From positions 1-64,000 of the forward strand of contig JAMLIR010000009.1 of the NCBI GenBank assembly GCA_023954045.1: DNA of 64,000 bases, in the 5' to 3' direction. This stretch comes from Burkholderiaceae bacterium (GTDB taxonomy: Bacteria; Pseudomonadota; Gammaproteobacteria; Burkholderiales; Burkholderiaceae_E). The notes below the pieces were generated by a model. It was not told where the DNA came from. It made no database searches and worked only from the letters and a program-made list of their open reading frames with translations. A program made the position numbers and the translations under genes. Positions within the stretch are counted from its first letter, which is position 1. Every line of letters starts with the position of its first letter. Shown here piece by piece: positions 11,391 through 62,020 of this stretch.

Positions 11391-12500
11391 ATGGAACAGG
11401 TTATCAAGGTTCACGTCGGACTGGACGTGCACAAGGATTCGATCGCCATCGCGGTGGCTGAAGCGGGCCGAAGCCCGGGGCGGCTGATCGGTCAGATCGC
11501 CCACGACGTTCCCAAGTTGCTCAAGGCGCTGGCGCGGCTGGGCGAACCCGATACGGTGCACGTGATCTACGAGGCGGGTCCGACCGGTTACGGGCTGCAG
11601 CGCACGCTCTCGGCCAAGGGCTACCGCTGCGAGGTCATCGCCCCGTCGCTGATCCCGCGGCGCGCGGGCGATCGCGTCAAGACCGACCGGCGCGACTGCC
11701 TGCGCCTGGCCGAGCTCTCGCGCGCCGGCGAGTTGCGCGCGGTGTGGATTCCAGACCGAGGCGACGAGGCGATCCGCGACCTGTCGCGGGCGCGCGAGGA
11801 TGCGGTGAACTCGCGCACGCAGGCCCGTCACCAGCTCAAGGCGTTTCTGCTGCGCCACGAGATCCGCTACGGGGCCAAGACGGCATGGACCAAGTCGTTC
11901 TACCGCTGGCTGGGGGAATTGAACTTCAGCGATCCCAGCAGCCAGGTGGCGTTCACCGAGTACCACCTCGCGGTGCAGGCGGCCGACCAGCGTCTGCAGC
12001 GGCTGACCACGGCGCTGACCGCCTCGGTATCGGGCTGGCGATTCGAGTCGGTGGTGCAGGCGTTACAGGCGCTGCGCGGCATCGACGTGGTCTCGGCAAT
12101 CGGGCTGGTGGCCGAGATCGGGGACATCGCACGTTTCGACCATCCGCGCAAGCTGATGGCCTACCTGGGGCTGGTGCCCTCGGAGCACTCCAGCGGGGAT
12201 CGTGTGCGCAAGGGCTCGATCACCAAGACCGGCAACGCGCACGCACGACGATTGCTCACCGAGGCGGCGTGGAACTATCGGTTCACCCCGCGCATCGGGC
12301 GGGCCGCGCAGGCGCGCCAGGAGACACTGGCCGAACCGATCAAGTCCATCGCCTGGAAGGCACAGCTGCGGCTGAGCGGGCGCTACGCACGATTGAACGG
12401 CAGGGGCGTACACCACAACAAGGTGTGCGTGGCGGTGGCGCGCGAACTCGCCGGCTTCGTCTGGGCAATCGCGCAAGCCAACTGCGCCCAACCCCGGTGA
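11391..12500 (+). CDS. IS110-family transposase (DEDD recombinase)
   Basis: A 369-residue transposase. The N-terminal RuvC-like DEDD domain shows VGLDVHKDS with Asp12, HVIYEAGPTG with Glu61, and KTDRRD with Asp99 and Asp102, the four metal-binding acids. The C-terminal Transposase_20 region (LGLVPSEHSSG...GSITKTGNAHARRLL, from about residue 257) carries the serines from which the nucleophile is drawn. The gene is full length and has no frameshift, so the element may still be active. IS110-family recombinases are guided by a structured 'bridge' RNA encoded in the element. Start ATG at 11391 follows GGAG at a good distance. Confidence 0.93.
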   Translation: MEQVIKVHVGLDVHKDSIAIAVAEAGRSPGRLIGQIAHDVPKLLKALARLGEPDTVHVIYEAGPTGYGLQRTLSAKGYRCEVIAPSLIPRRAGDRVKTDRRDCLRLAELSRAGELRAVWIPDRGDEAIRDLSRAREDAVNSRTQARHQLKAFLLRHEIRYGAKTAWTKSFYRWLGELNFSDPSSQVAFTEYHLAVQAADQRLQRLTTALTASVSGWRFESVVQALQALRGIDVVSAIGLVAEIGDIARFDHPRKLMAYLGLVPSEHSSGDRVRKGSITKTGNAHARRLLTEAAWNYRFTPRIGRAAQARQETLAEPIKSIAWKAQLRLSGRYARLNGRGVHHNKVCVAVARELAGFVWAIAQANCAQPR

Positions 12501-46095: not shown

Positions 46096-48222
46096 ATGGC
46101 GAGACCGCCGGCGGTGCCCGCACAGACTCGAGCCGGGCTCGGGCGGCGGCTGTTCCAGTTCGCGCTCGTGGCCGACACGCACGTCAACGAGCGTGACGGG
46201 CACTCGTCGTCACCCTACGAAGCCAACGCGCGCGCCAATGCCCGCGCGCGCCACGTCTTCGCGTCGATCGCGCAGCTCGAGCCGCAGCCGGCCTTCGTGA
46301 TTCACCTGGGCGATATCGTCCATCCTGTGCCCGAGCTGCCCGGCTTCGTGCCCGCGGTCGAGCAGTTCAAGGCGTTGTCGGCCGTCACCCGATGTCCGCT
46401 GCACGTGCTGCCCGGCAACCACGACGTCGGGGACAAGCGGGTCGACTGGATGCCCGCCGGAACGGTCACCAGCGAGCACGTCGCGCAGTACCGGGAGCAC
46501 TTCGGCCCCGACTACTACGCGTTCGAGTCGCACGGCTGCCGGTTCTTCGCGCTCGACGCGCAGCTGATCAACTCGGGTTTGCCGGCCGAGCGCGAGCAGC
46601 GTGAATGGTTCGAGCGCGAACTGTCGTCCTGCGCCGGGCAGCGCACCTTCGTGTGCCTTCACTACCCGCCGTACGTCACCGACCGCAACGAGCGCGGCAC
46701 CTACGACAACATCGACGAACCCGGGCGGTCGTGGCTGCTGGACCTGGTCGCGAAGCACCGCCCCGAGGCGCTCTTCGCCGGCCACGTCCACAACTTCTGG
46801 TACGACGCGATCGGCGACACGTCGATGTACCTGCTGCCCGCCACGTCGTTCCTGCGGCACGACTACACCGAGTTCTACCGGGTCGCGCCGGCGCGCGAGT
46901 ACGGGCGGGGAGACGCCGGAAAGTTCGGCTACTTCCTCGTCGACGTGCACGAGAATGGCCACGTCGCGCATTGCGTGCGCACCCAGGGGGCCGAACTCGC
47001 CCCTGGCGAGACGCTCGGGGCGCCGCGCGAGCGCTTGCCCGCGGTGCACACGCGGACCAACCTGCGGGCGACGGTCGGCGTCGACCTGCGCCATCCCTGG
47101 GCCGAACTGGTCGAGATCGCCGCCACCGGGGGCGTGCAGGAGTTCGAGCGCAAGCTGGCCCGCAACGACTATCCGCTGCTCGCGCTCTGGGAGATGGGCG
47201 TGCGCCGGTTGCGCGTGCCGATCCAGGACTGGCTCGACGACCGGGTGCGCGCGCGCATGCGGTTGTTGCGAGACATGGGACACGAGTTCCTCGTCTACAG
47301 CTATGGACTTCCGACTGCCGAGGCGTTGCGACTGCTCGACGCGGCAACCGGCCTCGTCAGCGCCTTCGAGATCGTGCTGGCGCGCGCCCACATGCCGGCG
47401 GCGGCAGCGGGCCTCGCGCGACTGCGCGAGCGATCGGGTGCGCAGGTGTACCTGTCGAAGCTGCGGATGCACGAGGACGCGAAGTTCGACGGCTCGAAGT
47501 TCAGTCACTTCATCAACCACGGCTTCGTCGCCGCCGAGCGCGAGCAGATGGCCGAGCTGCTCGACGCGAAGGGACTGCGCGGCGCCGTCGACGGCCTCGC
47601 GTTCCGCGTGGCGCGTCGCGAGAGCCCTGCGCAGGCGCTGCCGGCGCTCGCAAGGCTGGGCGCCGAACTCGATTCGGGCGTCCTCGCGCACGTGCGCCTC
47701 GCCGGCGAGAGCCCGGCCGACGCATACACCGACGATCACGCCAACTCCTGCCGCGTGGCCGACACCGTCCTGGCGAACCTGCTCGAACCGGCGGTCAGCG
47801 TGTTCTTCGACACGTTCATGGACGTCGACCGAGGCTACTTTCCGCGAAGCGGCTTCATCGACCGGCGCTACGACCCGCGCCCGGCGAGCCGCGTGTACGC
47901 GAACCTGCACGCGGCGCTGGCCGGGCGGCGGATCGAGGCACTCGCCGGTCATGGTGCGGCGCTCTCGTCGCTGCGGCTGGCGCGTGTCGACGGCGAGCCG
48001 GTCGCGCTCGTGCTGCCCGAGGACCCGCAGGCCGCCGGGATGGTCACCGGCCTGCCGGCCGGGCTCTTGCGGCCCGGCGCCGGCGTGGTCGTCACCGATC
48101 TGCAGACCGGCGTCGTTTCGCGAGCCTCGCTCGGCGAGGGCGATGCGCTGCGGATGACCGGCGACGCACCGCTTCCTTGCGGCCCGTATCTGATTCGTCC
48201 CGGAGACGGGGGCCGCGGATGA
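46096..48222 (+). CDS. Metallophosphoesterase fused to a C-terminal barrel-like domain
   Basis: A 708-residue protein. Residues 20-250 form a calcineurin-like phosphoesterase with all metal motifs: LVADTHVN (Asp27, His29), HLGDIVH, GNHDVG (about 106-111), LHYPPY, and AGHVHNF (about 228-234). Residues about 330-610 (from GVDLRHPWAELVEIAATGG) contain repeated 'LRRLRVPIQDW', 'FLVYSYGLP', 'VYLSKLR' strand-helix units and are probably a TIM-barrel-like domain I cannot name. A short beta-rich tail ends the protein. It sits inside a CoA-ester cluster and its stop overlaps the next start (ATGA), so it is probably needed for the pathway. No signal peptide is seen, so it should be cytoplasmic. Confidence 0.75.
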   Translation: MARPPAVPAQTRAGLGRRLFQFALVADTHVNERDGHSSSPYEANARANARARHVFASIAQLEPQPAFVIHLGDIVHPVPELPGFVPAVEQFKALSAVTRCPLHVLPGNHDVGDKRVDWMPAGTVTSEHVAQYREHFGPDYYAFESHGCRFFALDAQLINSGLPAEREQREWFERELSSCAGQRTFVCLHYPPYVTDRNERGTYDNIDEPGRSWLLDLVAKHRPEALFAGHVHNFWYDAIGDTSMYLLPATSFLRHDYTEFYRVAPAREYGRGDAGKFGYFLVDVHENGHVAHCVRTQGAELAPGETLGAPRERLPAVHTRTNLRATVGVDLRHPWAELVEIAATGGVQEFERKLARNDYPLLALWEMGVRRLRVPIQDWLDDRVRARMRLLRDMGHEFLVYSYGLPTAEALRLLDAATGLVSAFEIVLARAHMPAAAAGLARLRERSGAQVYLSKLRMHEDAKFDGSKFSHFINHGFVAAEREQMAELLDAKGLRGAVDGLAFRVARRESPAQALPALARLGAELDSGVLAHVRLAGESPADAYTDDHANSCRVADTVLANLLEPAVSVFFDTFMDVDRGYFPRSGFIDRRYDPRPASRVYANLHAALAGRRIEALAGHGAALSSLRLARVDGEPVALVLPEDPQAAGMVTGLPAGLLRPGAGVVVTDLQTGVVSRASLGEGDALRMTGDAPLPCGPYLIRPGDGGRG

Positions 48223-49124
48223 CGCAGGCCCCGAAGAGGCAGGAGAAGCTCGCCTCGGTGGCGCAGGCCGCCGACCTCGTGCGCGACGGCATGACGATCG
48301 CGCTCGGCGGCTTCATCAACAGCGGCCACCCGATGCCGCTGGTGCGGGAGCTGATCCGGCGCAAGCGCCGGAACCTCACCGTCATCGGCCCCGCGTCGGG
48401 CGGGCTCGACCTCGACCTGCTGGTCGCCGGCGGCTGCGTGTGCAAGCTCGTGAGCTGCTACTTCGGTGCCGAGACGCTCGCGCCGATCTCGCCGATGATC
48501 AAGCGGGCGGCCGAACGCGGCGAGCTCGAGATCTTCGAATGCGACGAGGGGATGTACTACGCGGCCCTGCACGCCGGGGCGCAGCGCCTGCCGTTCCTGC
48601 CGACCCGCGCCGGCGTCGGCACGAGCTTTCCCGCCGTCAATCCCGCGCTGAAGGAATTCCGCGATCCGATCGCTGGCGAGCCGCTGCTCGCGATTCCGGC
48701 GATTCGCCCCGACGTGGCGTTCCTCCATGCGGGCTTCTCCGACGTCTTCGGAAACGTCCAGCACGTCGGAACCAGCTACGGCGACCGCGCCCTGTACCGG
48801 GCTTCCGAGCGCACGGTGGTCTTCGTCGAGAAGATCGTCTCGAACGAAGAGATCCGGCGCGACGCCGCGCGCACCTCGATTCCCGGCGCCGACGCCGTGG
48901 TGCGCGCGCCGTTCGGCTCTCACCCGTTCGCGAGCCCCGGCTTCTACCTCAGCGACGACGCGCACCTGCGCGAGTACCTCGCGGCCTGCAATGTGCTCGT
49001 CCGGACGGACGACGACGGCCCGCTGCAGGCGTACCTCGAGCGCTACGTCCACCGGCCGGAGGATCACGTCGACTACCTCGAGGTGGTCGGCCTGCGGCGC
49101 CTGCTGTCGCTCTCCGAGTATTGA
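48219..49124 (+). CDS. CoA-transferase family subunit A (IpdA/glutaconate-CT-like)
   Basis: A 301-residue alpha subunit of a family I CoA-transferase-fold enzyme. LVRDGMTIALGGF, LTVIGPASGGLDLDLLVAGG and AAGAQRLPFLPTRAGVGTS-like blocks fit the glutaconate CoA-transferase/IpdA group. IpdAB relatives act as ring-opening hydrolases rather than transferases, so the reaction is uncertain. It overlaps the stop of the metallophosphoesterase gene and is followed 22 bases later by its beta partner. The pair probably forms an alpha2-beta2 enzyme. Confidence 0.83.
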   Translation: MTQAPKRQEKLASVAQAADLVRDGMTIALGGFINSGHPMPLVRELIRRKRRNLTVIGPASGGLDLDLLVAGGCVCKLVSCYFGAETLAPISPMIKRAAERGELEIFECDEGMYYAALHAGAQRLPFLPTRAGVGTSFPAVNPALKEFRDPIAGEPLLAIPAIRPDVAFLHAGFSDVFGNVQHVGTSYGDRALYRASERTVVFVEKIVSNEEIRRDAARTSIPGADAVVRAPFGSHPFASPGFYLSDDAHLREYLAACNVLVRTDDDGPLQAYLERYVHRPEDHVDYLEVVGLRRLLSLSEY

Positions 49125-49146: not shown

Positions 49147-49953
49147 ATGAACGCCACCGAGCGCCCCTGCACGATCGACGAGCTGAACGCGGTGTTCCTT
49201 TCCCGGCAGATCGCCGACGGCGAGCGCGCACTCGTCGGCGCCAACGTACCGGTGCCGCGCGCCGGCGTACTGTTGGCACACCTGCACCACGGTCCGAACA
49301 TGATCGTGATGCTCGCGCACACGCGCACGAATCTCTACGACGAACCGGTCCTGCCCGACTTCGCCTCGCTGACGGACTGGCGACAGTCGCGCTGGGCGGA
49401 GTCGCAGTACATCCACTACGAGGTCTTCGACGCGTTCGACAAGATCACCGACCTGTTCGCGGTCGGCGCGCTGCAGATCGATCCGTACGGAAACGCCAAC
49501 CTGATCGGTGTCGGCGACGACTACCGGCAGCTGAAGTTCCGCGGCCCGGGCGCGGTGGGAACGCCGAGCGCGGCGACCTCGATCGGCCGCTACTACCTCT
49601 ACGTCGCGTCGCACGACCGGCGCATCTTCGTCGAGCGATGCGACTTCGTTTCGACCTTCGGCTGGGGCGAGGGCGGCGACCACCGCAAGCGGCTTGGTTT
49701 CCCCGGCGGCGGGCCGCGCTTCTGCATCACCCCGCTGTGCATCTTCGATTTCGAGGAGCAGAGCAAGCGGATGCGGCTGCATTCGCTGCACCCCGGCGTC
49801 AGCGTCGACGACGTGCTGCGCAACACCGGGTTCGAGCCGATCGTTCCCGCGCACGTCCCGCAGACCGAACCGCCCACCGAGGAGGAATTGCGGCTGCTGC
49901 GCGGCCGGGTCGATCCCGGCGGCATCCTGCGGCGACGGGAACGCGCGGGCTAG
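49147..49953 (+). CDS. CoA-transferase family subunit B (IpdB/glutaconate-CT-like)
   Basis: A 268-residue beta subunit. The stretch GALQIDPYGNANLIGVGDDYRQLKFRGPG and the late MRLHSLHPGVSVDDVLRNTGF are typical of the IpdB/glutaconate-CoA-transferase beta group. I could not locate the catalytic glutamate of true CoA-transferases with confidence, which leaves open a hydrolase role as in IpdAB of steroid-ring degradation. ATG at 49147 lies 22 bases past the A-subunit stop. An acyl-CoA dehydrogenase gene follows. Confidence 0.82.
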   Translation: MNATERPCTIDELNAVFLSRQIADGERALVGANVPVPRAGVLLAHLHHGPNMIVMLAHTRTNLYDEPVLPDFASLTDWRQSRWAESQYIHYEVFDAFDKITDLFAVGALQIDPYGNANLIGVGDDYRQLKFRGPGAVGTPSAATSIGRYYLYVASHDRRIFVERCDFVSTFGWGEGGDHRKRLGFPGGGPRFCITPLCIFDFEEQSKRMRLHSLHPGVSVDDVLRNTGFEPIVPAHVPQTEPPTEEELRLLRGRVDPGGILRRRERAG

Positions 49954-51190: not shown

Positions 51191-52621
51191 CTATCTGCCG
51201 TGCCTGGCCAGGTAGTCGCCGAAGATCTCGTCGACACTCGGCTCGCGCGGGGCGATTCGCCGCGCGATCCGGGTGATGTTCAGGTAGTGGCGGTAGTCGA
51301 GGTTCTCGGAGAAGCTGTTGCCGCCCCAGGTGCCGCAGCCCATCGACAGCGAGAACGGCAAGCCGTTGTCGAAGCTGCCACCGGTCGCGAAGCAGTGGGC
51401 CTGGTTGACGATTACCCGGCACACCGGCAGCTCGAGGCCGAGCCGAAGGATGTTCTCGTCGCTTGCCGAGTGAATGCCCACCGAGTGGCCCGCGCCCTGG
51501 TATGAGTAGATCTCGCCGACGATGCGGCACGCGTCGTCGAAGTCCCGCGCACGGTAGACCGCCAGCACCGGCGACAGCTTTTCTCCGGAGAACGGGCAGT
51601 CCGGCCCCATGCCGGACTCTTCGACCATCAGGAAGCGCGCGCCCGCGAGTTGCGGGCGCGACAGCTGCGCGAGTTCGGCGATGCGCGGTGCGGACTGGGC
51701 GGTGATCGTCGAGGACAGCTTGCCCTGCGGCCACATGGTCGTCTGCAGGCGGCGCTTTTCGTCGGCGTCGAGCATCACGCCGCCGGCCGCCTCGAGCGCG
51801 GCCAGAGCCTGCTCGTAGACCGCGTCCAGGACGACGACGCTGTTCTCGGACGAGCAGCTGGTCGCGTTGTCGAAGCCCTTCGATGCGGCGATGGCCTGCG
51901 CCGCGTCGCGAAGGTTCGCCGAGACGTCGATGATCGAGGCGGCATTGCCCGCGCCCACGCCGAAGGCCGGCGTGCCGCTCGAATAGGCCGCCCGGACGTT
52001 GCTCTGCGAGCCGGTGGCGACGATCAGGTCGGCCTGGCGCATCAGTTCGTGAGTCGTCGCCTTCGTCACCGGGGCCGGCAGATGTTGCACCAGGTCGGGC
52101 GGCAGCCCGAGCTGCTTCAGCGCGGACCGGACGTAGCCCACGAGCGCCATGCAGGTGCCCAGCCCTTTCGGCGATGGCGCGAGGATGATCGCGTTGCGGC
52201 CCTTCAGCGCGTTGATGATCTTGTTCGCCGGCGTGGCGGCCGGATTCGTCGATGGCGTGATCGCCGCCACCACCCCGGCCGGCCGCGCGATCTCGAGCAG
52301 CCCCCGCGCCGGATCCTCGGAGATCACTCCGACGGTCCGGACGCCCTGCAGGTCGCGCAGCAGTCCCAGCGTCTTGCGGTGGTTCTTGACGACCTTGTCT
52401 TCGACGTTCCCGAGCCCCGTCTCGCGGACTGCCATCTCGGCAAGTTCCCGGTTGCGCGAGGGCTCGATGATCGCCCACCCGGCGGCCAGCACCGCCTCGT
52501 CGACCTGCTGCTGGTTGCAGCGCTCGTAGTCGCGCTGGGCGGCGCGCGCCCTGGCGATCAATGCTGCGACCACCGCACTCGCCTCCGCGGCGCGGGGGTC
52601 CTGGACAGGGTTTGCCGACAT
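51191..52621 (-). CDS. sauS: SauS-like acylating sulfoacetaldehyde dehydrogenase
   Basis: A 476-residue CoA-acylating aldehyde dehydrogenase. The catalytic Cys256 lies in NATSCSSENSVVV. IAPRPAG-type cofactor region ARPAGVVAAITPSTNPAATPANKIINALKGRNAIILAPSP and QAHCFATGGSFDNGLPFSLSMGCGTWGGNSFSEN are distinctive. From memory these match SauS of Cupriavidus, which in sulfoacetate catabolism reduces sulfoacetyl-CoA to sulfoacetaldehyde with NADPH. Other acylating dehydrogenases share the fold, so substrate is not proven. It lies 48 bases downstream of the BKACE gene on the same strand, opposite a carboxylase-transporter operon, and xsc, the next enzyme of that pathway, is in this window. Confidence 0.78.
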   Translation of the reverse strand: MSANPVQDPRAAEASAVVAALIARARAAQRDYERCNQQQVDEAVLAAGWAIIEPSRNRELAEMAVRETGLGNVEDKVVKNHRKTLGLLRDLQGVRTVGVISEDPARGLLEIARPAGVVAAITPSTNPAATPANKIINALKGRNAIILAPSPKGLGTCMALVGYVRSALKQLGLPPDLVQHLPAPVTKATTHELMRQADLIVATGSQSNVRAAYSSGTPAFGVGAGNAASIIDVSANLRDAAQAIAASKGFDNATSCSSENSVVVLDAVYEQALAALEAAGGVMLDADEKRRLQTTMWPQGKLSSTITAQSAPRIAELAQLSRPQLAGARFLMVEESGMGPDCPFSGEKLSPVLAVYRARDFDDACRIVGEIYSYQGAGHSVGIHSASDENILRLGLELPVCRVIVNQAHCFATGGSFDNGLPFSLSMGCGTWGGNSFSENLDYRHYLNITRIARRIAPREPSVDEIFGDYLARHGR

Positions 52622-52669
52622 GGGTTGCGTCTCGCAGAGGGGTTCAGCGGGGAGCCGTTCGTCTTGCCG

Positions 52670-53512
52670 TCAGTGGATTGCGGCCACGGGCGCGAGGCCG
52701 AGCAACTGGCGCGCCTCCGCGGGGCTCGCGACGTGTCGACCGTACTGCCCGCAGACGTCGGCGATCTTCCTGACGAGCTCCGCATTGCTGGCAGCCAGCC
52801 GCGTCGGATCGAACTTGACGTTGTCCTCGAGCCCGGTGCGGCAGTGGCCGCCGGTCTCCAGGCACCACTGGTTGACTTCCCACTGGAAACGGCCGGTCCC
52901 CGCGGCGACCCAAGTCGCCTCGGGCATCAGCTCGCGAAGCTCGCTGCGAAGGAAATCGAACACGGATCGACGGGCCGGGAGCGCGTTCTGGATGCCGAGA
53001 ACGAACTGGACGTGCAGCGGCGTCCTGAGCAGCCCCTTCTTTGCGAGCTGGACCGCGTTGTAGAGCATCGCGACGTCGAAAACCTCGATCTCGGGCTTGA
53101 TGTCGAGCTCGAGCATCGTCTTCGCCAGGCCCTCGACGAAGTCGGGCGGGTTCTCGTAGATGCTGGCGGGGAAGTTGACCGAGCCCGTCGCCAGCGACGC
53201 CATGTCCGGTCGAAGCCCCAGCATCGCGCCGCGCGCCGCCTGCTCGCGGCCGCGGCCGCCGGTGGAGAACTGGATGATCATGCCGGGGCAATACTTCCGC
53301 ACGCCCTCCTGGACGCGGGCGAAGAGCTCCGGGTCCGAGCTCGGCGACTCGTCGGGCGCGCGCACGTGAACGTGCACCAGCGAGGCGCCCGCCTCGAAGG
53401 CTTCGTGCGTCGACTCGATCTGCTCCGCCGGGGTCACCGGCACGGCGGGGTTGTCCTTCTTGCGCGGCAACGCGCCGGTGATCGCCACGGTGATGATGGT
53501 GGGTGTCGTCAT
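52670..53512 (-). CDS. Beta-keto acid cleavage enzyme (BKACE, DUF849)
   Basis: A 280-residue BKACE-family protein with a TIM barrel. Zinc ligands are visible as His47 and His49 in LVHVHVR, and Glu229 in the GLEDN motif matches the third ligand. TVAITGALP and NPAVPVTPAEQIE form the first strand and loop. These enzymes condense a beta-keto acid with acetyl-CoA to give acetoacetate and the CoA ester of the remaining acyl group, as for 3-keto-5-aminohexanoate or dehydrocarnitine. Here, next to a SauS-like gene, sulfoacetyl-CoA is a plausible product. It is the first leftward gene from the divergent control region at 53.5 kb. Confidence 0.9.
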   Translation of the reverse strand: MTTPTIITVAITGALPRKKDNPAVPVTPAEQIESTHEAFEAGASLVHVHVRAPDESPSSDPELFARVQEGVRKYCPGMIIQFSTGGRGREQAARGAMLGLRPDMASLATGSVNFPASIYENPPDFVEGLAKTMLELDIKPEIEVFDVAMLYNAVQLAKKGLLRTPLHVQFVLGIQNALPARRSVFDFLRSELRELMPEATWVAAGTGRFQWEVNQWCLETGGHCRTGLEDNVKFDPTRLAASNAELVRKIADVCGQYGRHVASPAEARQLLGLAPVAAIH

Positions 53513-53663
53513 GGTCTCCTCTCTCGGCGCGCGTCTCGGGCAGAAATTTCGATGGTCGAAATGATGAATTTCATTATTGCAATTCTAGCGCGGCCGTGCA
53601 ATTATTTCTACCGATGAAACAATTTGTCTCGTTCAAAGAAACGAGATTCCGAAAGGAGACAAC
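53513..53663. promoter_or_regulatory. AT-rich divergent control region of the carboxylase/BKACE cluster
   Basis: This 151-base region is strikingly AT-rich for the genome. It contains ATTTCGA-TGG-TCGAAAT (53546-53562, perfect 7-3-7 palindrome), ATGAATTTCAT (53564-53574, 5-1-5), two direct TGCAATT copies 19 bases apart (53578, 53597) and a TCTCGTT/AACGAGA hairpin (53627-53646). TTGCAA (53577-53582) and AATTAT (53600-53605), 17 bases apart, could be the rightward promoter. An IclR protein is encoded at the end of the rightward operon and is the likely ligand. Confidence 0.6.
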
Positions 53664-54206
53664 GTGGGCATGCAGGGCCTGAGCTACCAGGAATTGCTGC
53701 AGCTGGTCGAGCTGATCAAGTCGTCGTCCCAGTTCCGCGAGTTCCGCTTGCGCTCGGGCGACCTCGAGCTCGAGCTGCGCCGTGGCGGTCCCGATGCGCC
53801 GGTCGCGCCCGCTTCGCGTGCGGATGCGCCGCTCAACGGCCATTCCGCGCCTCCCGCGCCCGCCCCGACCGCGGACCCCGCGCCGGCGGCCAGCGAGCCG
53901 GCGCCCGTCGCGGCGCGCCCCTCGGCGCCTGCGCCAGCGAAGGGGGTCCGTGAACTTCCCGAAGGCGCGACCGTGATCAAGTCCCCGATGGTCGGCACCT
54001 TCTACCGCGCGCCCGAGCCCGGCGCCAGGCCATTCGTCGAGGTGGGCGCCGCCGTGGCGCCCGACACCACGGTCTGCATCATCGAGGTCATGAAGCTGAT
54101 GAACTCGATTCCGGCGCAGTGTCGCGGAACGGTCGCCGAGATCCTGGTCGGCGACGGCGAGGCCGTCGAGTACGGCCAGCCCCTGATCGTCATCACCCCG
54201 GCCTGA
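53664..54206 (+). CDS. accB: Biotin carboxyl carrier protein (AccB-like)
   Basis: A 180-residue BCCP. The N-terminal helix region (SYQELLQLVELIKSSSQFREFRLRSGDLELELRR) resembles AccB. A Pro/Ala-rich flexible linker spans about 52-100, and the C-terminal biotinyl domain carries the biotin lysine, Lys144, in IIEVMKLMNSIPAQ. The start GTG at 53664 is chosen for its spacing to AAAGGAGA; ATG at 53670 is possible. The AccB-like name reflects homology; here it serves a biotin carboxylase and a pyruvate-carboxylase-type carboxyltransferase in the same operon, so it may not take part in fatty-acid synthesis. Confidence 0.88.
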   Translation: MGMQGLSYQELLQLVELIKSSSQFREFRLRSGDLELELRRGGPDAPVAPASRADAPLNGHSAPPAPAPTADPAPAASEPAPVAARPSAPAPAKGVRELPEGATVIKSPMVGTFYRAPEPGARPFVEVGAAVAPDTTVCIIEVMKLMNSIPAQCRGTVAEILVGDGEAVEYGQPLIVITPA

Positions 54207-54242
54207 ACGCATGAACCGCGAGCGCCCGGCGGTCCGGCACCG

Positions 54243-55619
54243 ATGAAGCACGACGATCACGCAGTCCGGCCTTTCAGGCGGGTGTTGATCGCCAATCGCG
54301 GCGAGATCGCCGTGCGGATCCATCGCGCGTGCCACGAATTGGGTCTCGAGACCGTCCAGGTCTATTCCGAGGCCGACCGCGACAGCCTGCCGGTACGCCT
54401 CGCGGATCACGCCGTCTGCATCGGCCCCGCGCGTTCGGCGCAGAGCTACCTGAACGGCCAGTTCATCCTGTCCGCTGCGTCGATGTTCAAGGCCGAAGCG
54501 ATACACCCCGGGTACGGCTTCCTCTCCGAGAACGCCGGCTTCGCGAGGGCCTGCGAGCAGGAGGGCATCGCGTTCATCGGGCCATCGGCCGACGTCATCG
54601 CGATGATGGGAGACAAGGCGCGCGCGCGCGCGGTGGCCGAGGAAGCCGACGTCCCGACGACGCCCGGCTCGCGCGGCACGGTCGGCGACCCGATCCAGGC
54701 GCGGGCGATCGCCGACTCGCTCGGCTACCCGGTGATCCTGAAGGCCGCGGCGGGCGGCGGCGGCCGCGGGATGAGGGAGGTCCACCGCAGCGAAGACCTG
54801 GCCTCGCAATACGAGAACGCCGCCCGAGAGGCCAAGGCGGCGTTCGGCGACGACGCGATCTACGTCGAGAAGTTCCTCACGCGGATCCGGCACATCGAGA
54901 TCCAGATCCTCTCGGACGGCGAGAACGTCCTGCACCTCGGCGAGCGCGACTGCTCGGTGCAGCGGCGCAACCAGAAGTTGCTCGAGGAGGGGCCTTCGCC
55001 GGTGCTCGACCCCGGGCTGCGCGAACGGATCGTCGAAGCAGCGGTGCGCCTGTGCCGGCACGCCGGATATCGCAGCGCCGGCACGATCGAGTGCATCCTC
55101 GACCCGCAGACCGGCGAGTTCTACTTCATGGAGATGAACACGCGGATCCAGGTCGAGCATCCGGTGACCGAGATGATCACCGGGGTCGACATCGTCAAGG
55201 AGCAGATCCGCATCGCCCAGGGCGAGAAGCTCCGCCTCGACCAGGCGGACGTCCGGCTGGCCGGCCACGCGATCGAGTGCCGGATCAACGCCGAGGATGC
55301 CGACGCCGACTTCGCGCCGGCGCCCGGGGTGATCTCCGACGTGCACTGGCCGGGCGGACCGGGCATCCGGGTCGACTCGCACGTCTACCGCGGCTATCGG
55401 GTTCCGCCCTACTACGACTCGCTGCTCGCCAAGCTCGTCGCCTGGGGGAAGGATCGCACCGAGGCCATGGCGCGGATGGCACGCGCGCTGGCCGAGCTTC
55501 GCGTCGACGGGGTCAAGACGACCGCGCCGTTCCATCAGCGACTGTTGCGATCCGAAGACTTTCGACGCGGCGACGTCCACACGCGCTTCGTCGAGCAATT
55601 CCTGAGGGAGTCACGATGA
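54243..55619 (+). CDS. accC: Biotin carboxylase subunit (AccC-like)
   Basis: A 458-residue biotin carboxylase, which uses ATP and bicarbonate to carboxylate BCCP-bound biotin. RVLIANRGEIAVRIHRACHELG is the N-terminal signature. The glycine-rich ATP-grasp loop KAAAGGGGRGMREV lies near 161-174. The metal- and bicarbonate-binding EFYFMEMNTRIQVEHPVTEMITGVDIVKEQ is intact. Length is as in AccC (about 450). The gene follows accB by 36 bases and its stop overlaps the next start in ATGA, tying it to the carboxyltransferase subunit rather than to AccA/AccD. Confidence 0.92.
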   Translation: MKHDDHAVRPFRRVLIANRGEIAVRIHRACHELGLETVQVYSEADRDSLPVRLADHAVCIGPARSAQSYLNGQFILSAASMFKAEAIHPGYGFLSENAGFARACEQEGIAFIGPSADVIAMMGDKARARAVAEEADVPTTPGSRGTVGDPIQARAIADSLGYPVILKAAAGGGGRGMREVHRSEDLASQYENAAREAKAAFGDDAIYVEKFLTRIRHIEIQILSDGENVLHLGERDCSVQRRNQKLLEEGPSPVLDPGLRERIVEAAVRLCRHAGYRSAGTIECILDPQTGEFYFMEMNTRIQVEHPVTEMITGVDIVKEQIRIAQGEKLRLDQADVRLAGHAIECRINAEDADADFAPAPGVISDVHWPGGPGIRVDSHVYRGYRVPPYYDSLLAKLVAWGKDRTEAMARMARALAELRVDGVKTTAPFHQRLLRSEDFRRGDVHTRFVEQFLRESR

Positions 55620-57091
55620 GCAGGAAGAAGCCGGGGGCAGCGGCGTCGCGGCCGTTCGGCCTGATCGACGTCACGCTGCGCGACGGACACCAGTGCCTGT
55701 GGTCGACCCGGATGACCACCGCCATGATGACGCCGATCCTGGAGGCGATCGATCGCGTCGGCTACTCGTACATCAACATCCTGGGTGGCGCCGTCTTCGA
55801 CGTCTGCGTGCGCTACCTGCACGAGAACCCGTGGGAACGCGTGGCGCTCCTCTGCGATCGGCTGAAGACGCCGTGCGACGGGCTCACGCGCGGGCAGAGC
55901 CTGTACACGTTCGAGCTGTTTCCGGACGACGTGGTGGCGCTGAACTCGTACGTGCTGGCACGGCTCGGCGTGAAGGTGCTGACCGTCTACGACGCGCTGA
56001 ACGACAACCGCAACATCGTGTCGTCGGTCGTCTCGGCGCACGAGGCGGGAATGCAGGTCAACGCGATGATGACCTACACGCTCTCGCCCGTGCACACGGA
56101 CGCGTACTACGTCGAGCGCGCGAAGGAACTGGTCGCGCTGAAGGCCGACTTCATCTCGATCAAGGATCCGACCGGGCTGCTGACGCCCGAGCGGGCACTC
56201 ACCCTCTTCCCGGCCGTCGTCCAGGCGGCCGCCGGCACGCCGGTGCAGCTGCACTCGCATTGCCAGTCCGGGCTCGCGCCGCAGGTCTACGGCATCGCGG
56301 TCGAATCCGGCTTCCGGTACGGCTATACCGCGTCGGAGCCGCTTGCGAACGGCGCCTCGCTGCCTTCGACCGAGGAGATCGACGAGCGCGCGCGCGCGCT
56401 CGGGGCTACCACCGGAATCGACAGGTCGGCCCTGGCGGAGGTGTCGGGCTACTTCGCCTGCCTGGCGGAACGCGAGGGCAAGCCGAGGGGCCGGGTCACG
56501 GAATACGACCCCGCGCTCTACGAGCATCAGGTGCCTGGCGGCATGATCTCGAACCTGCGCTCGCAGCTCGCGACGATGGGCATGGAGCACCGGCTTCCGG
56601 AGATCCTCGAAGAGGCCGCCAGGGTGCGGCGCGACCTGGGCTATCCGATCCTCGTGAGCCCGTTCGCGCAATACATCATCACGCAGTCCGTGCTCAACGT
56701 CGTCCAGGGCGAGCGCTACAAGACGATCCCCGACGAGGTGCGCAAGTACGCGATGGGACACTACGGCAGGCTGGCTGCGGCGCCTTCGGACGAGTTCCTG
56801 GAGCGGGCCGGCATCCGGCCGGATCAGATCTCCGACGAGCCGCCGGCTGCGCACCTCGCGCCGGCGCTGCCGGCACTTCGGGCGCAGCTCGGCTCGGGAG
56901 CTTCCGACGAGGACCTGCTGCTCGCCGCGTTCTATGCGCCGGAGCTGCTGGCCCCGCTTCGCAAGCCGCAGCCGGCGTACCAGTTCAGGACGACGCCGTT
57001 GATGGAGTTGATCCGGTACGTCGGATCGTTGAAGGACCTGCGAATGACCCGAATCCGCTTCGGCGAAACGGAGATGACCTTGTCGAGCTGA
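55616..57091 (+). CDS. Pyruvate-carboxylase-type carboxyltransferase subunit
   Basis: A 491-residue HMGL-like/PYC-OADA carboxyltransferase. The metal-binding aspartate is in LIDVTLRDGHQCLWSTRM (Asp18). The carbamylated lysine is Lys183 in FISIKDPTGLLTP, and the metal histidines are His213 and His215 in LHSHCQSG. It lacks a fused biotin domain. Pyruvate carboxylases, oxaloacetate decarboxylases and transcarboxylase 5S share this fold, and all act on the carbon next to a ketone. Its gene partners suggest a keto-acid or methyl-ketone substrate. It overlaps accC by four bases, so the three genes should encode one complex. Confidence 0.85.
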   Translation: MSRKKPGAAASRPFGLIDVTLRDGHQCLWSTRMTTAMMTPILEAIDRVGYSYINILGGAVFDVCVRYLHENPWERVALLCDRLKTPCDGLTRGQSLYTFELFPDDVVALNSYVLARLGVKVLTVYDALNDNRNIVSSVVSAHEAGMQVNAMMTYTLSPVHTDAYYVERAKELVALKADFISIKDPTGLLTPERALTLFPAVVQAAAGTPVQLHSHCQSGLAPQVYGIAVESGFRYGYTASEPLANGASLPSTEEIDERARALGATTGIDRSALAEVSGYFACLAEREGKPRGRVTEYDPALYEHQVPGGMISNLRSQLATMGMEHRLPEILEEAARVRRDLGYPILVSPFAQYIITQSVLNVVQGERYKTIPDEVRKYAMGHYGRLAAAPSDEFLERAGIRPDQISDEPPAAHLAPALPALRAQLGSGASDEDLLLAAFYAPELLAPLRKPQPAYQFRTTPLMELIRYVGSLKDLRMTRIRFGETEMTLSS

Positions 57092-57183
57092 GCCGATCGC
57101 CAGACACCGTGCGTCGGCACGAACCCCAACAAGAGCCGGATCCACGGCCTCGAACGCCCGAAACTTACCGAGGAGACTCTCGC

Positions 57184-58467
57184 ATGGATACACGAACGAT
57201 CGCGCGGCCCCGTCGCCGCGTTCTGGCGGCGATGGCGAGCGCAGCAGCGCTTCTGCTGCCGGCCGCGTCCTTCGCGCAGGACAAGTTCAACGACTGGGGC
57301 TGGCCGCAGCCCTACGAGAAGGTCTCGGACAAGTCGGTCCAGTGGCTGAAGGACAAGGGCTGGTGGCCGATCCAGGTCGCGTTCCAGGCGCCGTGGTCGG
57401 GCCAGAACACGGTGAACATCGTGATGGACCGGATGGGACTGCTCAAGGCGCGCGGCGTCGAGGCCAAGTGGACTGCGTTCCCGTCGGGCCCGGCCATCAA
57501 CGAGGTGCTGATCTCGGGCCGCTACCAGGTCGGCAACGGGGGCAACTTCCCGTTCACCTCGCTGGTCGACAGGAAGATCCCGGTGAAGGCGATCGGCATC
57601 GTCAGTCCGAACCTGCTGCACGCACTGGTGGTTCCGAGCGACTCGCCGCTGAGGAGCATCAAGGACCTGAAGGGCTCGAACCCGCCCGCCACGATCGGAC
57701 TGGTCACCGGTTCGTCGGCGGAGTTCTATTTCCAGATGGCGATCCAGCTCAATGGCCTGCAGGTCGGCAAGGACATCATCCTGAAGAACATGCCGCCGGG
57801 CGAACAGATCGCGATGCCCAAAGGCGTGACCGGGGTCGTCTCGTGGGACCCCACGCCCGAACTGATCGTGTCCGAGCGCAAGACCGGCCGGATCGCCGAC
57901 ACGATCTTCCCGTACAACATGTACGAGGGCCAGTTCTATCTGCGCAGCGAGATCATCGAAAATGTTCCCGACGTCGCGCAGGCGTTCGCCGATGCACTCG
58001 CCGAGGCGACCCTCTGGACGCGCCGCAACCCGGAGAAAGCCGCGGAAGTGATGGCCGAAGATCCGAACCTTCGCCACTTCTCGAAGGCCATCCTGCTGCA
58101 GCAGATCCAGGCCTACAACAACCTGTACAAGCCGACCTACCTGTACCCGCACGCGCAGTTCTGGGGGCAGGCCAACGAGCCGATCTTCGACTGGCTGTTC
58201 GCGCAGAAGCGCATCACGCGACCGCTGAAGGCAGGTGACTTCGCCGACGCGGTCGACGAGCGGTTCATGCGGACCACGTTCGGCAAGCTCGGATGGGCGG
58301 TGCCGAAGCAGCCGCCGTTCCTGCCGGCCGACTGGAAGGGGCAGGCGAACAAGCCTCCGTATCCCGAGTACGTGCACGCGTTCAACAGCAAGCAGCCGCA
58401 GCCGTTTCCCGAGGCCGGCGACCTGACGAAGCCGTGGAGTTTCGCGGGCCGCAGTTTCCAACCATGA
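57184..58467 (+). CDS. ABC transporter substrate-binding protein (taurine/sulfonate type)
   Basis: A 427-residue periplasmic binding protein of the NitT/TauT family. A signal peptide with a twin-arginine-like RPRRRVLAAMASAAALLLPAASFAQD lies at 8-33. The mature part contains VNIVMDRMGLLKARGVEAKW and QVGNGGNFPFTSLVDRKIPVK, as in sulfonate and nitrate binding proteins. The permease and ATPase genes follow. Ligand cannot be read from sequence; sulfonate is suggested by family, TauE and the SauS-like gene. It has a long acidic Trp/Pro-rich C terminus of about 60 residues beyond usual TauA length. Confidence 0.83.
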   Translation: MDTRTIARPRRRVLAAMASAAALLLPAASFAQDKFNDWGWPQPYEKVSDKSVQWLKDKGWWPIQVAFQAPWSGQNTVNIVMDRMGLLKARGVEAKWTAFPSGPAINEVLISGRYQVGNGGNFPFTSLVDRKIPVKAIGIVSPNLLHALVVPSDSPLRSIKDLKGSNPPATIGLVTGSSAEFYFQMAIQLNGLQVGKDIILKNMPPGEQIAMPKGVTGVVSWDPTPELIVSERKTGRIADTIFPYNMYEGQFYLRSEIIENVPDVAQAFADALAEATLWTRRNPEKAAEVMAEDPNLRHFSKAILLQQIQAYNNLYKPTYLYPHAQFWGQANEPIFDWLFAQKRITRPLKAGDFADAVDERFMRTTFGKLGWAVPKQPPFLPADWKGQANKPPYPEYVHAFNSKQPQPFPEAGDLTKPWSFAGRSFQP

Positions 58468-58515
58468 ATCCGTGCCCGGCGGCGAGCGTCTGCCGCCGCC
58501 GGTGGAGGCTCGCTC

Positions 58516-59403
58516 ATGAATGACGTCATGGCCGGCAAGGGCGCCGCCGCCGAACCCGCTGGCCGGAGCACCGCGTCTGCGACGCGGCGGTCCGCCGAAG
58601 CGCTCGGTGCCGCCCTTCCGCGGCCACCGGGCCTTGCCGCCAGGCTTCTTGGAAGGGTCAGGCGGTTGGGGCTCGTCGCGTTGCTGCTGGTCGTCTGGCA
58701 GTACGTCAGCACCTCGGTGCTGGACGAGACCGCGCGCGTACTTCTGCCGCCACCGATGGCCATCTTCTCGGCGGCGTGGGAACTGATCGTTTCGGGTGAT
58801 CTGTGGCGCCACCTGGGCGACTCGCTGAAGCGGGAGGCGGTGGCCTTCCTCTGGGCCACGATCGCGATCCCGCTCGGCGTCGCGATGGGATGGTGGAAGG
58901 CGGTCGACGAGCAGTTCGATCCGTTGATGGAAGTCCTCCGCCCCATTCCCCCGCTCGCCTGGATTCCGCTTTCGATCCTCTGGTTCGGAATCGGCGACAC
59001 GCAGAACCAGTTCATCATCTTCCTCGGCATCTTCTTCCCGATCCTGCTCAACACGATCACGGGCGTGCGCGGTGTGGAGCCGAACCTGGTCCGCGCCGCG
59101 CGTTGCCTCGGCGCCAGCGAGTGGGCGATCCTGTCGCGCGTGGTGCTGCGCGCCGCACTGCCGCAGATCATCACGGGCATCCGCATCGGCCTCGGGGTGG
59201 GATGGATGGCGCTCGTCGCGGCCGAACTGGTCGGCGCGAGTTCCGGCCTCGGCTTCCTGATCAACGACGCCCGGACGATCCTGCGTACCGACTACATCAT
59301 CGTCGGGATGGCGACGATCGGGATCGTCGGCCTCCTGATCGACGCCGCGATCCGCGAAGTGATGCGCCGGGTCCTCCCGTGGTCGCGCGCGATGCAACAG
59401 TGA
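58516..59403 (+). CDS. ABC transporter permease (TauC/SsuC type)
   Basis: A 295-residue permease with about six membrane helices after a polar 45-residue N-terminal region. The EAA loop that contacts the ATPase is [42 protein letters not shown], very close to TauC/Ssu[24 protein letters not shown] is a second family block. The gene lies 48 bases after the binding protein and ten bases before the ATPase gene. Alternative later ATG starts would shorten the polar head. Confidence 0.9.
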
Positions 59404-59413
59404 GGGGTTCGCC

Positions 59414-60217
59414 ATGAGCGACGTCAGCGTCGAGCACGTCACGAAGATCTTTCCGGGCCACGACGCCAAGGACGAGCCGGTGTTGGCGCTGGACGACGTC
59501 AGTTTCGAGATCCAGGATCAGGAGTTCTGCTCGATCCTCGGCCACAGCGGCTGCGGCAAGACCACGCTGCTGACCATGCTTGCCGGATTCGAGCAACCGA
59601 CCGAAGGTCGCGTTCTCGTCGACGGCCGGCCGGTCGGCCGTCCCTCATGGACCCGCTCGGTGGTCTTCCAGGACTACGCGCTGTTCCCGTGGCTGACCGT
59701 CGAGCGCAATGTCGCATTCGGCCTCGAAATGAAGAAGATCCCGTCGGCGCAGCGAAGCGCGATCGTCGAGCGCAATCTGCGTCTCGTCGGCCTCGACGGC
59801 TTCGAAAAGCGCTACCCGCACCAGCTCTCCGGCGGGATGAAGCAGCGGGTGTCCATCGCGCGCGCGTTGGCCGTCGATCCCGAAGTCCTGCTCATGGACG
59901 AGCCGTTTGCGGCGCTCGACGCCCAGAACCGCGCGATGATGCAGGAGGAAATGGGGCGGATCCTCGCCGAGGCCGACCCGGCTGCGCGCAAGACCATGGT
60001 CCTGGTCACGCACAGCATCGAGGAGGCGATTCTGTTGTCCGACCGGATCATCGTACTGTCGAGTCGCCCGGGGCGCGTCAAGGAGAACATCCGCGTCGAC
60101 CTGCCGAGGCCGCGCGACGAGGACCAGCCGGGGTTCGTCGAGTTGCGACGGCACATCCGGCAATTGATCCACGAAGAGCTCTACGCCGAGTCGCGATCGG
60201 CGCACACCCGAGCCTGA
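59414..60217 (+). CDS. ABC transporter ATP-binding protein (TauB/SsuB type)
   Basis: A 267-residue ATPase. Walker [12 protein letters not shown] is at 43-53, the signature [15 protein letters not shown] at about 138-152, Walker [13 protein letters not shown] at about 157-168, and the switch histidine is in [10 protein letters not shown]. It drives uptake through the TauC-like permease. The N terminus has an unusual [19 protein letters not shown] insertion but the core is standard. It is followed by a TauE-family gene 90 bases later. Confidence 0.92.
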
Positions 60218-60307
60218 GCGTGCATTTTCCCGGCATGCGAGCGGCACGCACCACGGTGCCGTCGGAGCGAGTGACCTGAGCGAGGCTGCAACGATGCGGG
60301 GGGCATC

Positions 60308-61042
60308 ATGCTGGACGAGCTCTTGAGTGTGCAGATGCTGGCGGCCGTGGCGATCGGCGCCGTGGCGGGATGGATTCGTGGCGTTACGGGATTCGGAGCG
60401 GCGATGGTGATGACGCCGCCGCTCAGCCTCATGCTGGGTCCGCAACTCGCGGTCCCCGTCACCCTGATGCTCGAGACCTTCGCGGCGGCGCCGATGCTGC
60501 CTGGGGCTGCGCGCATCGCGCAGTGGAGGGTCCTCGCGCCGATCTCCGTGGCAGCCGTGGCGTTCGTGCCTGTCGGGGCCTACGTGCTCGCGACGGCGGA
60601 GCCGGATCCGCTGCGGCGCGCCATCGCGTTGATCGTCATCGTTTTTTCGCTGCTGCTGCTGAGCGGCGCCCGATACCACGGACGGCAGCGCATCTCGACC
60701 TCGGTCGGACTCGGCAGCCTCAGTGGAACCATGCTGGGAGCCACCAGCATCGGCGCGCCCCCGGTGATCCTCTACCTGCTCGCGGGACCCGAGCCGGTTC
60801 ACGTCACCCGGGCGAACCTCACGCTCTACGTCGTCGTGATCTCCGCGGTGGGACTCCTCTCCCTCGCATTCCGGGGCGTGATCGATCAGCGCGTGATGAT
60901 GTTCGCGGCAGCGATGGCCCCGCTATTCATGGCGGGAGTGATCGCCGGTTCGCGCTTCTTCGCCTACCTGAGCGACCAGCGCTTCCGCCGGCTCACCATG
61001 GTATTCATGCTGCTCGTCTCGACTTTCGTCCTGTTGGCCTGA
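60308..61042 (+). CDS. tauE: TauE/SafE-family sulfite exporter
   Basis: A 244-residue membrane protein with about eight helices and the TauE/SafE pattern of two repeated GxxxG-rich halves (AGWIRGVTGFGAAMVMTPPLSLMLGP and GSLSGTMLGATSIGAPPVILYLLAGP). Family members export sulfite, sulfoacetate or other small anions. Next to a TauABC-like transporter, a SauS-like enzyme and with xsc in the window, sulfite export is the most natural role. It ends the transport operon, and an IclR gene starts 57 bases later. TACAAT at 61045-61050 may be the -10 for that regulator. Confidence 0.87.
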   Translation: MLDELLSVQMLAAVAIGAVAGWIRGVTGFGAAMVMTPPLSLMLGPQLAVPVTLMLETFAAAPMLPGAARIAQWRVLAPISVAAVAFVPVGAYVLATAEPDPLRRAIALIVIVFSLLLLSGARYHGRQRISTSVGLGSLSGTMLGATSIGAPPVILYLLAGPEPVHVTRANLTLYVVVISAVGLLSLAFRGVIDQRVMMFAAAMAPLFMAGVIAGSRFFAYLSDQRFRRLTMVFMLLVSTFVLLA

Positions 61043-61099: not shown

Positions 61100-62020
61100 A
61101 TGGCCAAGCAGCGCCACGAAGCTCCCACCGAGTCGATCGCCCTTCGAGCCTTCGCGGTGCTCGAGGAGGTCGTGCGCGCCGCGGCACCGATGTCGCTCGA
61201 CGAAGTGACGCACGCCCGCGGGCTGCCGAAGCCGACCACGTTCCGCATTCTGAGCCTGCTGCAGTCGGCCGATCTGCTGCGGCGCGAGCCGCTGACGAAG
61301 CGCTATACGGTCGGTCCCCGCCTGACGGCGTTCGCGCTCGATCTCTGGCGCCAGTCGACCTTGCGGGTCCAGTGGCACCGTGCGCTCGAGGAAGCGGTCG
61401 ACGAGATCGGCGAGAGCTGCAATCTCACGATCCTCGAGGGCGACAAGGTGCTCTATCTCGACCGGGTCGAGACGCGCCGACCGCTTCGGCTGCACCTCGA
61501 ACCCGGGACGCGTGTTCCGCTGCACTGCACGGCCAGCGGCAAGCTGTTCCTGTGCCAGATGAGCCGCGAACAGATCCGGCGGCTACTCGGCCCTGAGCCG
61601 CTCGAGTCCCACACCGACAAGACGATTACCCGCTACGCCGACCTGTTCGAGGACCTCGCGCGAGTACTGGGAACGCAGGTCGGGACCCACGACTGCGAGC
61701 TGTTCGACGATTCGGTGGCGATCGCGGTTCCGATTGCCGATACGGCGGGCTACATCTATGCCGCCGTCGCGGTCCATGCGCCATCGTCGCGCGAAAGCAT
61801 CGAGAGCTGCATGCGGTATCTGCCGGCATTGCGGAAGGCGGCATCGCGGATCGCCGCGACCATGACGCCGCCGCCGGCGGAGCCTCCCGGGCGCTCGGCG
61901 CCAGCCGCCAAGGGGGGGCGGGGCGCTGCGAAGCACGATTCAGGTGTGCTGGTCAGGCCTACCGTCCCGGCGAAGCGCGGGGCCACAGCACGGACGTCTT
62001 CGCGCCGGCCGCTTCGCTGA
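61100..62020 (+). CDS. IclR-family regulator of the carboxylase/sulfonate cluster
   Basis: A 306-residue IclR regulator. The helix-turn-helix is at about 31-58 (MSLDEVTHARGLPKPTTFRILSLLQ). The effector domain has VLYLDRVETRRPLRLHLEPGTRVPLHCTASGKLFL, nearly the same pattern as the IclR protein divergent from xsc. The Ala/Gly/Pro-rich C-terminal 45 residues are likely disordered. It sits at the end of the rightward operon and probably controls the divergent region at 53.5 kb. The similarity to the xsc-linked regulator suggests both sense related compounds. Confidence 0.87.
   Translation: MAKQRHEAPTESIALRAFAVLEEVVRAAAPMSLDEVTHARGLPKPTTFRILSLLQSADLLRREPLTKRYTVGPRLTAFALDLWRQSTLRVQWHRALEEAVDEIGESCNLTILEGDKVLYLDRVETRRPLRLHLEPGTRVPLHCTASGKLFLCQMSREQIRRLLGPEPLESHTDKTITRYADLFEDLARVLGTQVGTHDCELFDDSVAIAVPIADTAGYIYAAVAVHAPSSRESIESCMRYLPALRKAASRIAATMTPPPAEPPGRSAPAAKGGRGAAKHDSGVLVRPTVPAKRGATARTSSRRPLR

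Follow-up and report, generated by a model that had tools for sequence, protein, structure and literature searches.

Sulfoacetate is reportedly dissimilated in Cupriavidus by way of SauT, SauS and Xsc. The accessible part of a report on the SauCD/SauS system of Bilophila describes a coenzyme A (CoA) ligase followed by SauS, which acts on sulfoacetyl-CoA and yields sulfoacetaldehyde (PMC12890257). The HpeCBA/XccABC aryl-ketone carboxylases are three-part biotin enzymes that turn a methyl ketone into a beta-keto acid before an acyl-CoA is formed; as far as the accessible text goes, the substrates of HpeCBA are phosphorylated hydroxyphenyl ketones, for which its authors propose ligation to CoA followed by cleavage of the ester so formed (PMC9618137). 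Here, we analyze a divergent gene cluster in a 64,000-nucleotide stretch of DNA (the window) from a Burkholderiaceae bacterium (GCA_023954045.1, contig JAMLIR010000009.1, positions 1 to 64,000), in which a three-part biotin carboxylase, a BKACE and a SauS stand together. The genes and their counterparts in other genomes indicate that the cluster probably encodes a route for a keto-sulfonate, most likely sulfoacetone, that runs from the carboxylase through BKACE and SauS to Xsc.

The cluster would allow its host to take up a methyl-keto-sulfonate and to degrade it at the expense of ATP. The compound is most likely sulfoacetone (2-oxopropane-1-sulfonate), which some hosts may make from a hydroxy-sulfonate, e.g., 2-hydroxypropane-1-sulfonate, by means of a short-chain dehydrogenase (SDR). 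In the first step, the biotin carboxylase (BC), biotin carrier (BCCP) and carboxyltransferase (CT) would add a carboxyl group from bicarbonate, driven by ATP, to the methyl group that adjoins the ketone, and so form 3-oxo-4-sulfobutanoate. BKACE would convert this compound and acetyl-CoA to sulfoacetyl-CoA and acetoacetate, SauS would turn sulfoacetyl-CoA into sulfoacetaldehyde, and Xsc would form acetyl phosphate and sulfite from the latter, with sulfite leaving the cell through TauE. The substrate, the order of the steps and every reaction on that substrate are what we infer from the following genes.

5318-7126, plus strand: Xsc, sulfoacetaldehyde acetyltransferase (TIGR03457, 1086.3 bits, cut-off 676.4)
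51191-52621, minus strand: SauS, acylating sulfoacetaldehyde dehydrogenase (NF047625, 778.6 bits, cut-off 600)
52670-53512, minus strand: BKACE (PF05853, 315 bits; NF053568, 461.7, cut-off 350)
53670-54206, plus strand: BCCP, biotin carrier (TIGR00531, 141.3, cut-off 115.2)
54243-55619, plus strand: BC subunit (NF006367, 697.6, cut-off 597)
55616-57091, plus strand: CT subunit of the pyruvate carboxylase (PC)/OadA type (NF006761, 419.9, cut-off 402; PF02436)
57184-58467, plus strand: substrate-binding protein (SBP) of an ABC importer, SsuA/NMT1-like (TIGR01728, 84.3, below the cut-off of 163.5; PF13379)
58516-59403, plus strand: permease of the ABC importer, TauC-like (NF007545, 207.5, below the cut-off of 342)
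59414-60217, plus strand: ATPase of the ABC importer, best matched by a SaoA-type model (NF040729, 266.2, below the cut-off of 360)
60308-61042, plus strand: TauE/SafE-type exporter, proposed to export sulfite (PF01925, 98 bits against 32.6)
61100-62020, plus strand: IclR-family regulator (PF01614 and PF09339)
48219-49124 and 49147-49953, plus strand: CoA-transferase A and B genes near SauS (PF01144)

All cluster genes are intact open reading frames (ORFs) at about the positions given in the initial annotation, and its description of a divergent cluster of BCCP, BC, PC-type CT, BKACE, SauS, TauE and IclR is borne out by the ORFs and the model scores. SauS, BKACE, BCCP, BC and Xsc pass curated NCBIfam cut-offs; the CT match, NF006761, is to a domain-level model. 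The importer described there as TauABC-like is an ABC importer, but its SsuA-, TauC- and SaoA-type matches all fall below their cut-offs (the SBP scores, TIGR01728 and PF13379, were taken on a shorter reading starting at 57223), and we therefore do not name the imported compound despite the resemblance to sulfonate and taurine systems. BKACE, which is single-copy in a search of the window's genome, lies on the same strand as SauS at a distance of 48 bp and diverges from BCCP, with starts 157 bp apart. Xsc was indeed found elsewhere in the window; one contig (C50, 146.5 kb) holds both it and the cluster, and the genome has one Xsc over the cut-off and two SauS.

The lower pathway is shared with sulfoacetate dissimilation through SauS and presumably Xsc, with sulfoacetyl-CoA as the intermediate, but sulfoacetyl-CoA arises there by ATP-dependent ligation, whereas here it would arise by BKACE cleavage of a carboxylated ketone. 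Like HpeCBA, the window has separate, clustered BCCP, CT and BC genes. In contrast to HpeCBA, kinase and phosphatase partners are absent among the 10 window cluster genes scanned, and the cluster includes a BKACE, a step that does not figure in the accessible part of the proposal by the HpeCBA authors. VceA was considered as an earlier example of a carboxylated ketone being cleaved in the manner of BKACE and was dropped, since the co-substrate is not stated in the accessible part of its report (PMC11837543).

When named genomes were scanned with a profile, relatives of the CT (48 to 98% identity) were found at 79 loci, and the genomes carrying them are rich in both enzymes of the lower pathway. 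Xsc over the cut-off was found in 62 of the 79 (38/50 plus 24/29), or in 67 when pieces are counted (2 plus 3 more), and SauS over the cut-off was found in 64 (40/50 plus 24/29), against a background in the order of 31 and 23 of 250 genomes, respectively (Fisher test, P values of 5e-28 for Xsc and 6e-34 for SauS, with related genomes treated as independent). Polynucleobacter-like genomes raise these counts through kinship, and the order background is mismatched to alpha- and gammaproteobacterial genomes; the fairer comparison for Xsc is 38/50 against 31/250. Conserved co-occurrence of the carboxylase genes with xsc, a check suggested in the initial annotation, is thus seen. That annotation had also named the opposite pattern, carboxylase and BKACE genes kept without xsc and sauS, as evidence against the route: Xsc (pieces counted) and/or SauS is present in 73 of the 79 genomes, and the six with neither (L066, L070, L072, L089, L095 and L114; L and G numbers are our handles for loci and genomes) are all metagenome bins by their titles. 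Three of the six, L072 (a short contig), L095 and L114, also show no BKACE near the CT. All 13 genomes without a metagenome title have both Xsc and SauS (L043, L051, L073, L074, L075, L077, L081, L086, L087, L096, L104, L112 and L113).

The pairing of BKACE with SauS recurs outside the window. The two genes adjoin each other on the same strand in the window, L037, L038, L054, L056 and L091, and in L055 the neighbor of BKACE is a SauS that is cut off. By their ORF limits, the two genes overlap by 4 nt in L056 and in L054 (read again as L123). The second SauS of the window's genome (G000:C1:104712-106103; L116) is followed by an acyl-CoA ligase, with an IclR and a Bug-type protein near, and is probably a separate sulfoacetate module. 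The simplest reading is that two sources would feed one acyl-CoA, sulfoacetyl-CoA being the known substrate of the SauS family. A BKACE that passes its acyl-CoA to SauS would agree with this pairing, with the presence of two SauS copies and with the compact clusters found elsewhere. A tree of 28 SauS rows places the six copies with a BKACE neighbor in two groups, one in a supported set with two ligase-neighbor copies and the other in an unsettled position. A single clade of these copies was rejected (p-AU, 4.5e-5), and, given the starred branches, the partner must have changed at least twice, with gains and losses not being distinguished.

The CT itself is rare. In a search of 250 genomes of the same order at an E value of 1e-95, nine matched, and three of these had a CT with at least 60% identity (the window's genome, G000, and G576 and G577), all three with Xsc and SauS. 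A class-wide search at 1e-110 returned the window itself alone (1/369 genomes), a plasmid search gave 30 records, all below 60% identity (3 of them looked at), and in the genus around G430, a genome with both Xsc and SauS, none of seven genomes searched had the CT, a result that speaks for that genus alone. Near the 35 closest loci we found BKACE at 26, BCCP at 31, BC at 24, TauE at 21, an SDR2-like gene at 18, the same SBP at 15, SauS at 8 and Xsc at 2. In a Polynucleobacter-like group of 21 loci, BKACE was near in 16, SauS in 11 and BC in none, and the 23 more distant loci had BKACE in 13, an SDR2-like gene in 11, SauS in 2 and Xsc in 1. These counts are minimums, as the flanks are unequal and many end at contig ends. 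One gene-picking pass missed genes at GC-rich loci. Fifteen control loci with other CTs (approximately 36 to 46% identical), namely, 12 from the CT search of the order (six from one genome and two from another) and 3 plasmid records, carried none of BKACE, SauS, Xsc and TauE in their vicinity.

In some genomes, the proposed steps lie close together. The locus of G576 (L018) has Xsc at 5.7 to 7.4 kb and SauS at 8.5 to 9.9 kb, followed up to 15.7 kb by two SDRs, CT, BCCP and BKACE, so that 11 kb holds an IclR, Xsc, a Bug-type binding protein, SauS, an acyl-CoA ligase, the SDRs, CT, BCCP and a divergent BKACE. In G577, CT and BCCP share one short contig, and Xsc and SauS share another. Of the two SDRs that come after the CT in G576, one passes two 3-hydroxybutyrate dehydrogenase subfamily models (348.2 against 340 and 328.4 against 258) and misses TIGR01963 (291.4 against 307.05); the other is FabG-like in a general way. 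As 3-hydroxybutyrate has its sulfonate analogue in 2-hydroxypropane-1-sulfonate, the former SDR could either make sulfoacetone or handle the acetoacetate released by BKACE. The isolate Polynucleobacter MWH-Jannik1A5 (L119 with L075) carries a compact sulfonate island on one stretch, with Xsc, a three-gene molybdopterin oxidoreductase set, a phosphate-acetyltransferase-like (Pta-like) gene, SauS, a ligase, SulP, a GMC oxidoreductase, BKACE, IclR, BCCP, CT, the importer, TauE and acetate kinase (AckA). A second isolate (L118 with L074) has the same content as far as its contig end. The molybdopterin set, which no model named, is presumably SoeABC. As judged from its genes, and apart from BC, the island would cover nearly all that is needed between uptake of the substrate and the formation of acetyl-CoA and disposal of sulfite.

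The BKACEs of these loci share an active-site change. We counted as linked those with at least 55% identity to the window BKACE (the L113 copy at 725, near a CT, was counted among the others), and the unlinked copies were drawn from 30 of 70 BKACE matches. The PF05853 domain is present, H47 and H49 are found in all 53 linked copies, and R225, E229 and D230 are found in 52, with one gap; we take H47, H49 and E229 to be the metal-binding His/His/Glu and R225/D230 to be the Arg/Asp pair. Arg89 occurs in 51 of the 53 linked copies and in none of the 24 others in the set, one of which has Lys; the position is Gly in 3NO5, 3CHV and 3FA5 and Glu in Kce. phmmer aligns R89 with residue 91 of 9ZSC, and in BsfD of flavophos biosynthesis, Arg91 is described, in the accessible text, as a unique basic residue near the phosphonate of 3-oxo-4-phosphonobutanoate (PMC12871164), which is the phosphonate analogue of the proposed 3-oxo-4-sulfobutanoate. 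FastTree recovered the linked copies as one clade of 53 (support of 0.809). In IQ-TREE, both with and without three long rows, two changes are needed, since the linked copies enclose, with weak support, a group that includes 3NO5, 3CHV and 3FA5. We therefore do not claim strict monophyly, although the test does not reject a single clade (p-AU, 0.245). Four loci (L042:11477, L057:10583, L085:11476 and L113:6243) have another, divergent BKACE-like gene, in which the loop that follows strand 3 is longer; it stands directly after the CT in the first three and less than 4 kb from it in L113.

The CT is likewise altered at one position. At the site that we take to correspond to the catalytic Thr of pyruvate carboxylase (T882 in the Rhizobium enzyme), the best CT of all 82 loci has Ser, in the motif SPFAQ or SPFSQ, while 13 of the 15 control loci read TP and two were unread. 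(L069 is the same contig as L018, at 100% identity, so that the 82 loci are 81 places; G576 is also among the 79.) Extra CT copies have Ser at L039 and L047 (two) and Thr at L095, L106 and L114. Other than this Thr, the window CT keeps the residues of pyruvate carboxylase: the metal-site Asp, the carbamyl-Lys, the HxH motif and the active-site Arg and Gln. Thr stands where the sulfonate set has Ser in the CT of a Rhodococcus plasmid cluster that is HpeCBA-like by annotation; it is 37% identical to the window CT and is without the Lys that we take to be carbamylated. The further copies at L039 and L047 lie near the main CT, are 46 to 48% identical and read SPTAQ in place of SPFAQ. One genome of the order, G421, has six CT paralogues (L021, L023 to L025, L028 and L029; 42 to 45% identity), none with a BKACE nearby, which are candidates for other ketone or keto-acid carboxylases. 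On the Caballeronia sp. NK8 plasmid pNK84 (L035), a CT/BCCP/BC set shares its stretch with an acetoacetate decarboxylase-family gene, a carbonic anhydrase and a biotin synthesis gene.

Gene identities, linkage, co-occurrence and the shared active-site changes can be read directly from the DNA, but several points weigh against the proposed route. In the flanking DNA covered, only 3 of the 79 loci show Xsc and 21 show SauS, compared to 55 for BKACE, although absence near a CT is weak evidence because the flanks differ in length and often stop at the end of a contig; in the window, Xsc is approximately 44 kb away from SauS and outside the cluster. In L018 and Polynucleobacter, SauS adjoins an acyl-CoA ligase instead of BKACE, and a separate sulfoacetate route could explain both SauS and Xsc there; neither L018 nor the Polynucleobacter island showed a BC, and a shared BC has to be assumed for both. 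Four of the six genomes of the order with other CTs only also have Xsc (G421, G465, G468 and G505, but not G441 and G545), so that presence at the genome level is by itself unspecific, and it is the linkage and the BKACE partner that are specific. All importer components score below their family cut-offs, and the window has no SDR partner. The linked BKACEs have Phe145 in place of the Tyr described as catalytic in BKACEs (PMC12871164), and BsfD, which also has Phe, performs a different chemistry. Finally, NCBIfam names the group to which the window BKACE belongs for 3-oxoadipate.

This last point leads to the best rival, in which the carboxylase would convert levulinate to 3-oxoadipate, BKACE would form succinyl-CoA and acetoacetate, and the sulfonate genes would be chance neighbors or part of a shared regulon. 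Carboxylation of the methyl group of levulinate would give exactly 3-oxoadipate, and the window BKACE not only passes the cut-off of the 3-oxoadipate:acetyl-CoA model but also keeps the Zn-ligand and Arg/Asp positions of that group. However, it differs from the group in its linkage to a carboxylase and SauS and in having Arg89 where 3NO5, 3CHV and 3FA5 have Gly, and the model scores 3NO5 and 3CHV (494.8 and 489.5) above the three linked BKACEs scanned (447.7, 459.7 and 461.7). The levulinate route would also leave unexplained the presence of Xsc and/or SauS in nearly all of the CT-carrying genomes and the recurrent BKACE-SauS pairing, and we consider it improbable. It is similarly unlikely that the substrate is another sulfonated methyl ketone or a longer keto-sulfonate, with the order of carboxylase, BKACE and SauS-type reduction retained and a different sulfoacyl-CoA as the product. 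The importer and the SDRs do not define the substrate, and the specificity of SauS is taken from its family alone, which leaves room for such a compound, but the SauS and Xsc models (NF047625 and TIGR03457) are both models of C2-sulfonate enzymes, and both are passed by a wide margin.

That the CT belongs to an anaplerotic pyruvate carboxylase of the usual kind, which would have been adopted to support growth on C2 units while the BKACE does something separate, would agree with its PC/OadA type and with the Arg, Asp, Gln, carbamyl-Lys and HxH of that enzyme being kept in the 12 CTs of the sulfonate set shown. The uniform change from Thr to Ser, the rarity of the CT set in the class and the order and the tie to BKACE all argue against this, and on the strength of the Ser signature and the BKACE partner, we regard it as very unlikely. 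Hardly credible at all is an acetyl transfer to 3-oxo-4-sulfobutanoate without cleavage, yielding a sulfonated diketone in a biosynthesis, as might be proposed by analogy with BsfD, an enzyme of an antibiotic pathway that acetylates and decarboxylates 3-oxo-4-phosphonobutanoate. In the accessible text of PMC12871164, BsfD shares with the linked BKACEs the replacement of Tyr by Phe and an Arg in the loop that follows strand 3; it has a loop insertion of approximately 20 residues that the window BKACE is without. Phe145 (Kce numbering), present in 53/53 linked copies, is also found in the unlinked relatives 3NO5, 3CHV and 3FA5, and SauS, Xsc, TauE, Pta and AckA fit breakdown, with SauS and Xsc having no purpose in such a biosynthesis. 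The same preprint states, in its accessible part, that all BKACE sequences carry the catalytic Tyr (PMC12871164), a statement that is contradicted by the Phe in 3NO5, 3CHV, 3FA5 and the window BKACE.

Some other features of the window lie beside the cluster and Xsc. The CoA-transferase genes near SauS, which are also present at L037 and L038, have a Pfam match only, with no NCBIfam match at 1e-40; handling of acetoacetate is one conceivable role for them. Downstream of xsc is a GTP-type phosphoenolpyruvate carboxykinase gene (7529-9448; NF003253, 1005 bits), and between the part with xsc and the remainder of the window sits an ORF (11391-12500) that, by eye, resembles an IS110-type transposase.

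The carboxylase-BKACE-SauS-Xsc route put forward in the initial annotation is thus favored by the comparative genomics, through the co-occurrence of Xsc and SauS, the BKACE-SauS pairs and the compact clusters. That annotation also knew of no described pathway with this order of steps, and our literature search, from which subscription papers were mostly excluded, found no text that joins ketone carboxylation, BKACE and SauS. Among the titles and beginnings of abstracts covered, no pathway for the breakdown of sulfoacetone or of 2-hydroxypropanesulfonate/oxopropanesulfonate was found. The individual chemistries (ketone carboxylation, BKACE and SauS) are known; their combination would be new and appears well supported by gene context.

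In conclusion, we lean towards the view that a dedicated sulfoacetone carboxylase, marked by Ser for Thr, and a likewise dedicated BKACE for 3-oxo-4-sulfobutanoate, marked by Arg89, form a second entry to sulfoacetyl-CoA, ahead of SauS and Xsc, in Proteobacteria ranging from small-genome freshwater Polynucleobacter to Bradyrhizobium and that the compound used as food, sulfoacetone or 2-hydroxypropane-1-sulfonate, is an unrecognized natural C3 sulfonate. If this is true, the route would be a chemically new entry into microbial sulfonate breakdown, and it would point to a class of compounds for which no biology was found in the literature searched. It would also provide a testable function for families mislabeled "pyruvate carboxylase subunit B" and "3-oxoadipate" or "3-keto-5-aminohexanoate cleavage" enzyme, and these two families would gain that function in many species, cultured Polynucleobacter included.

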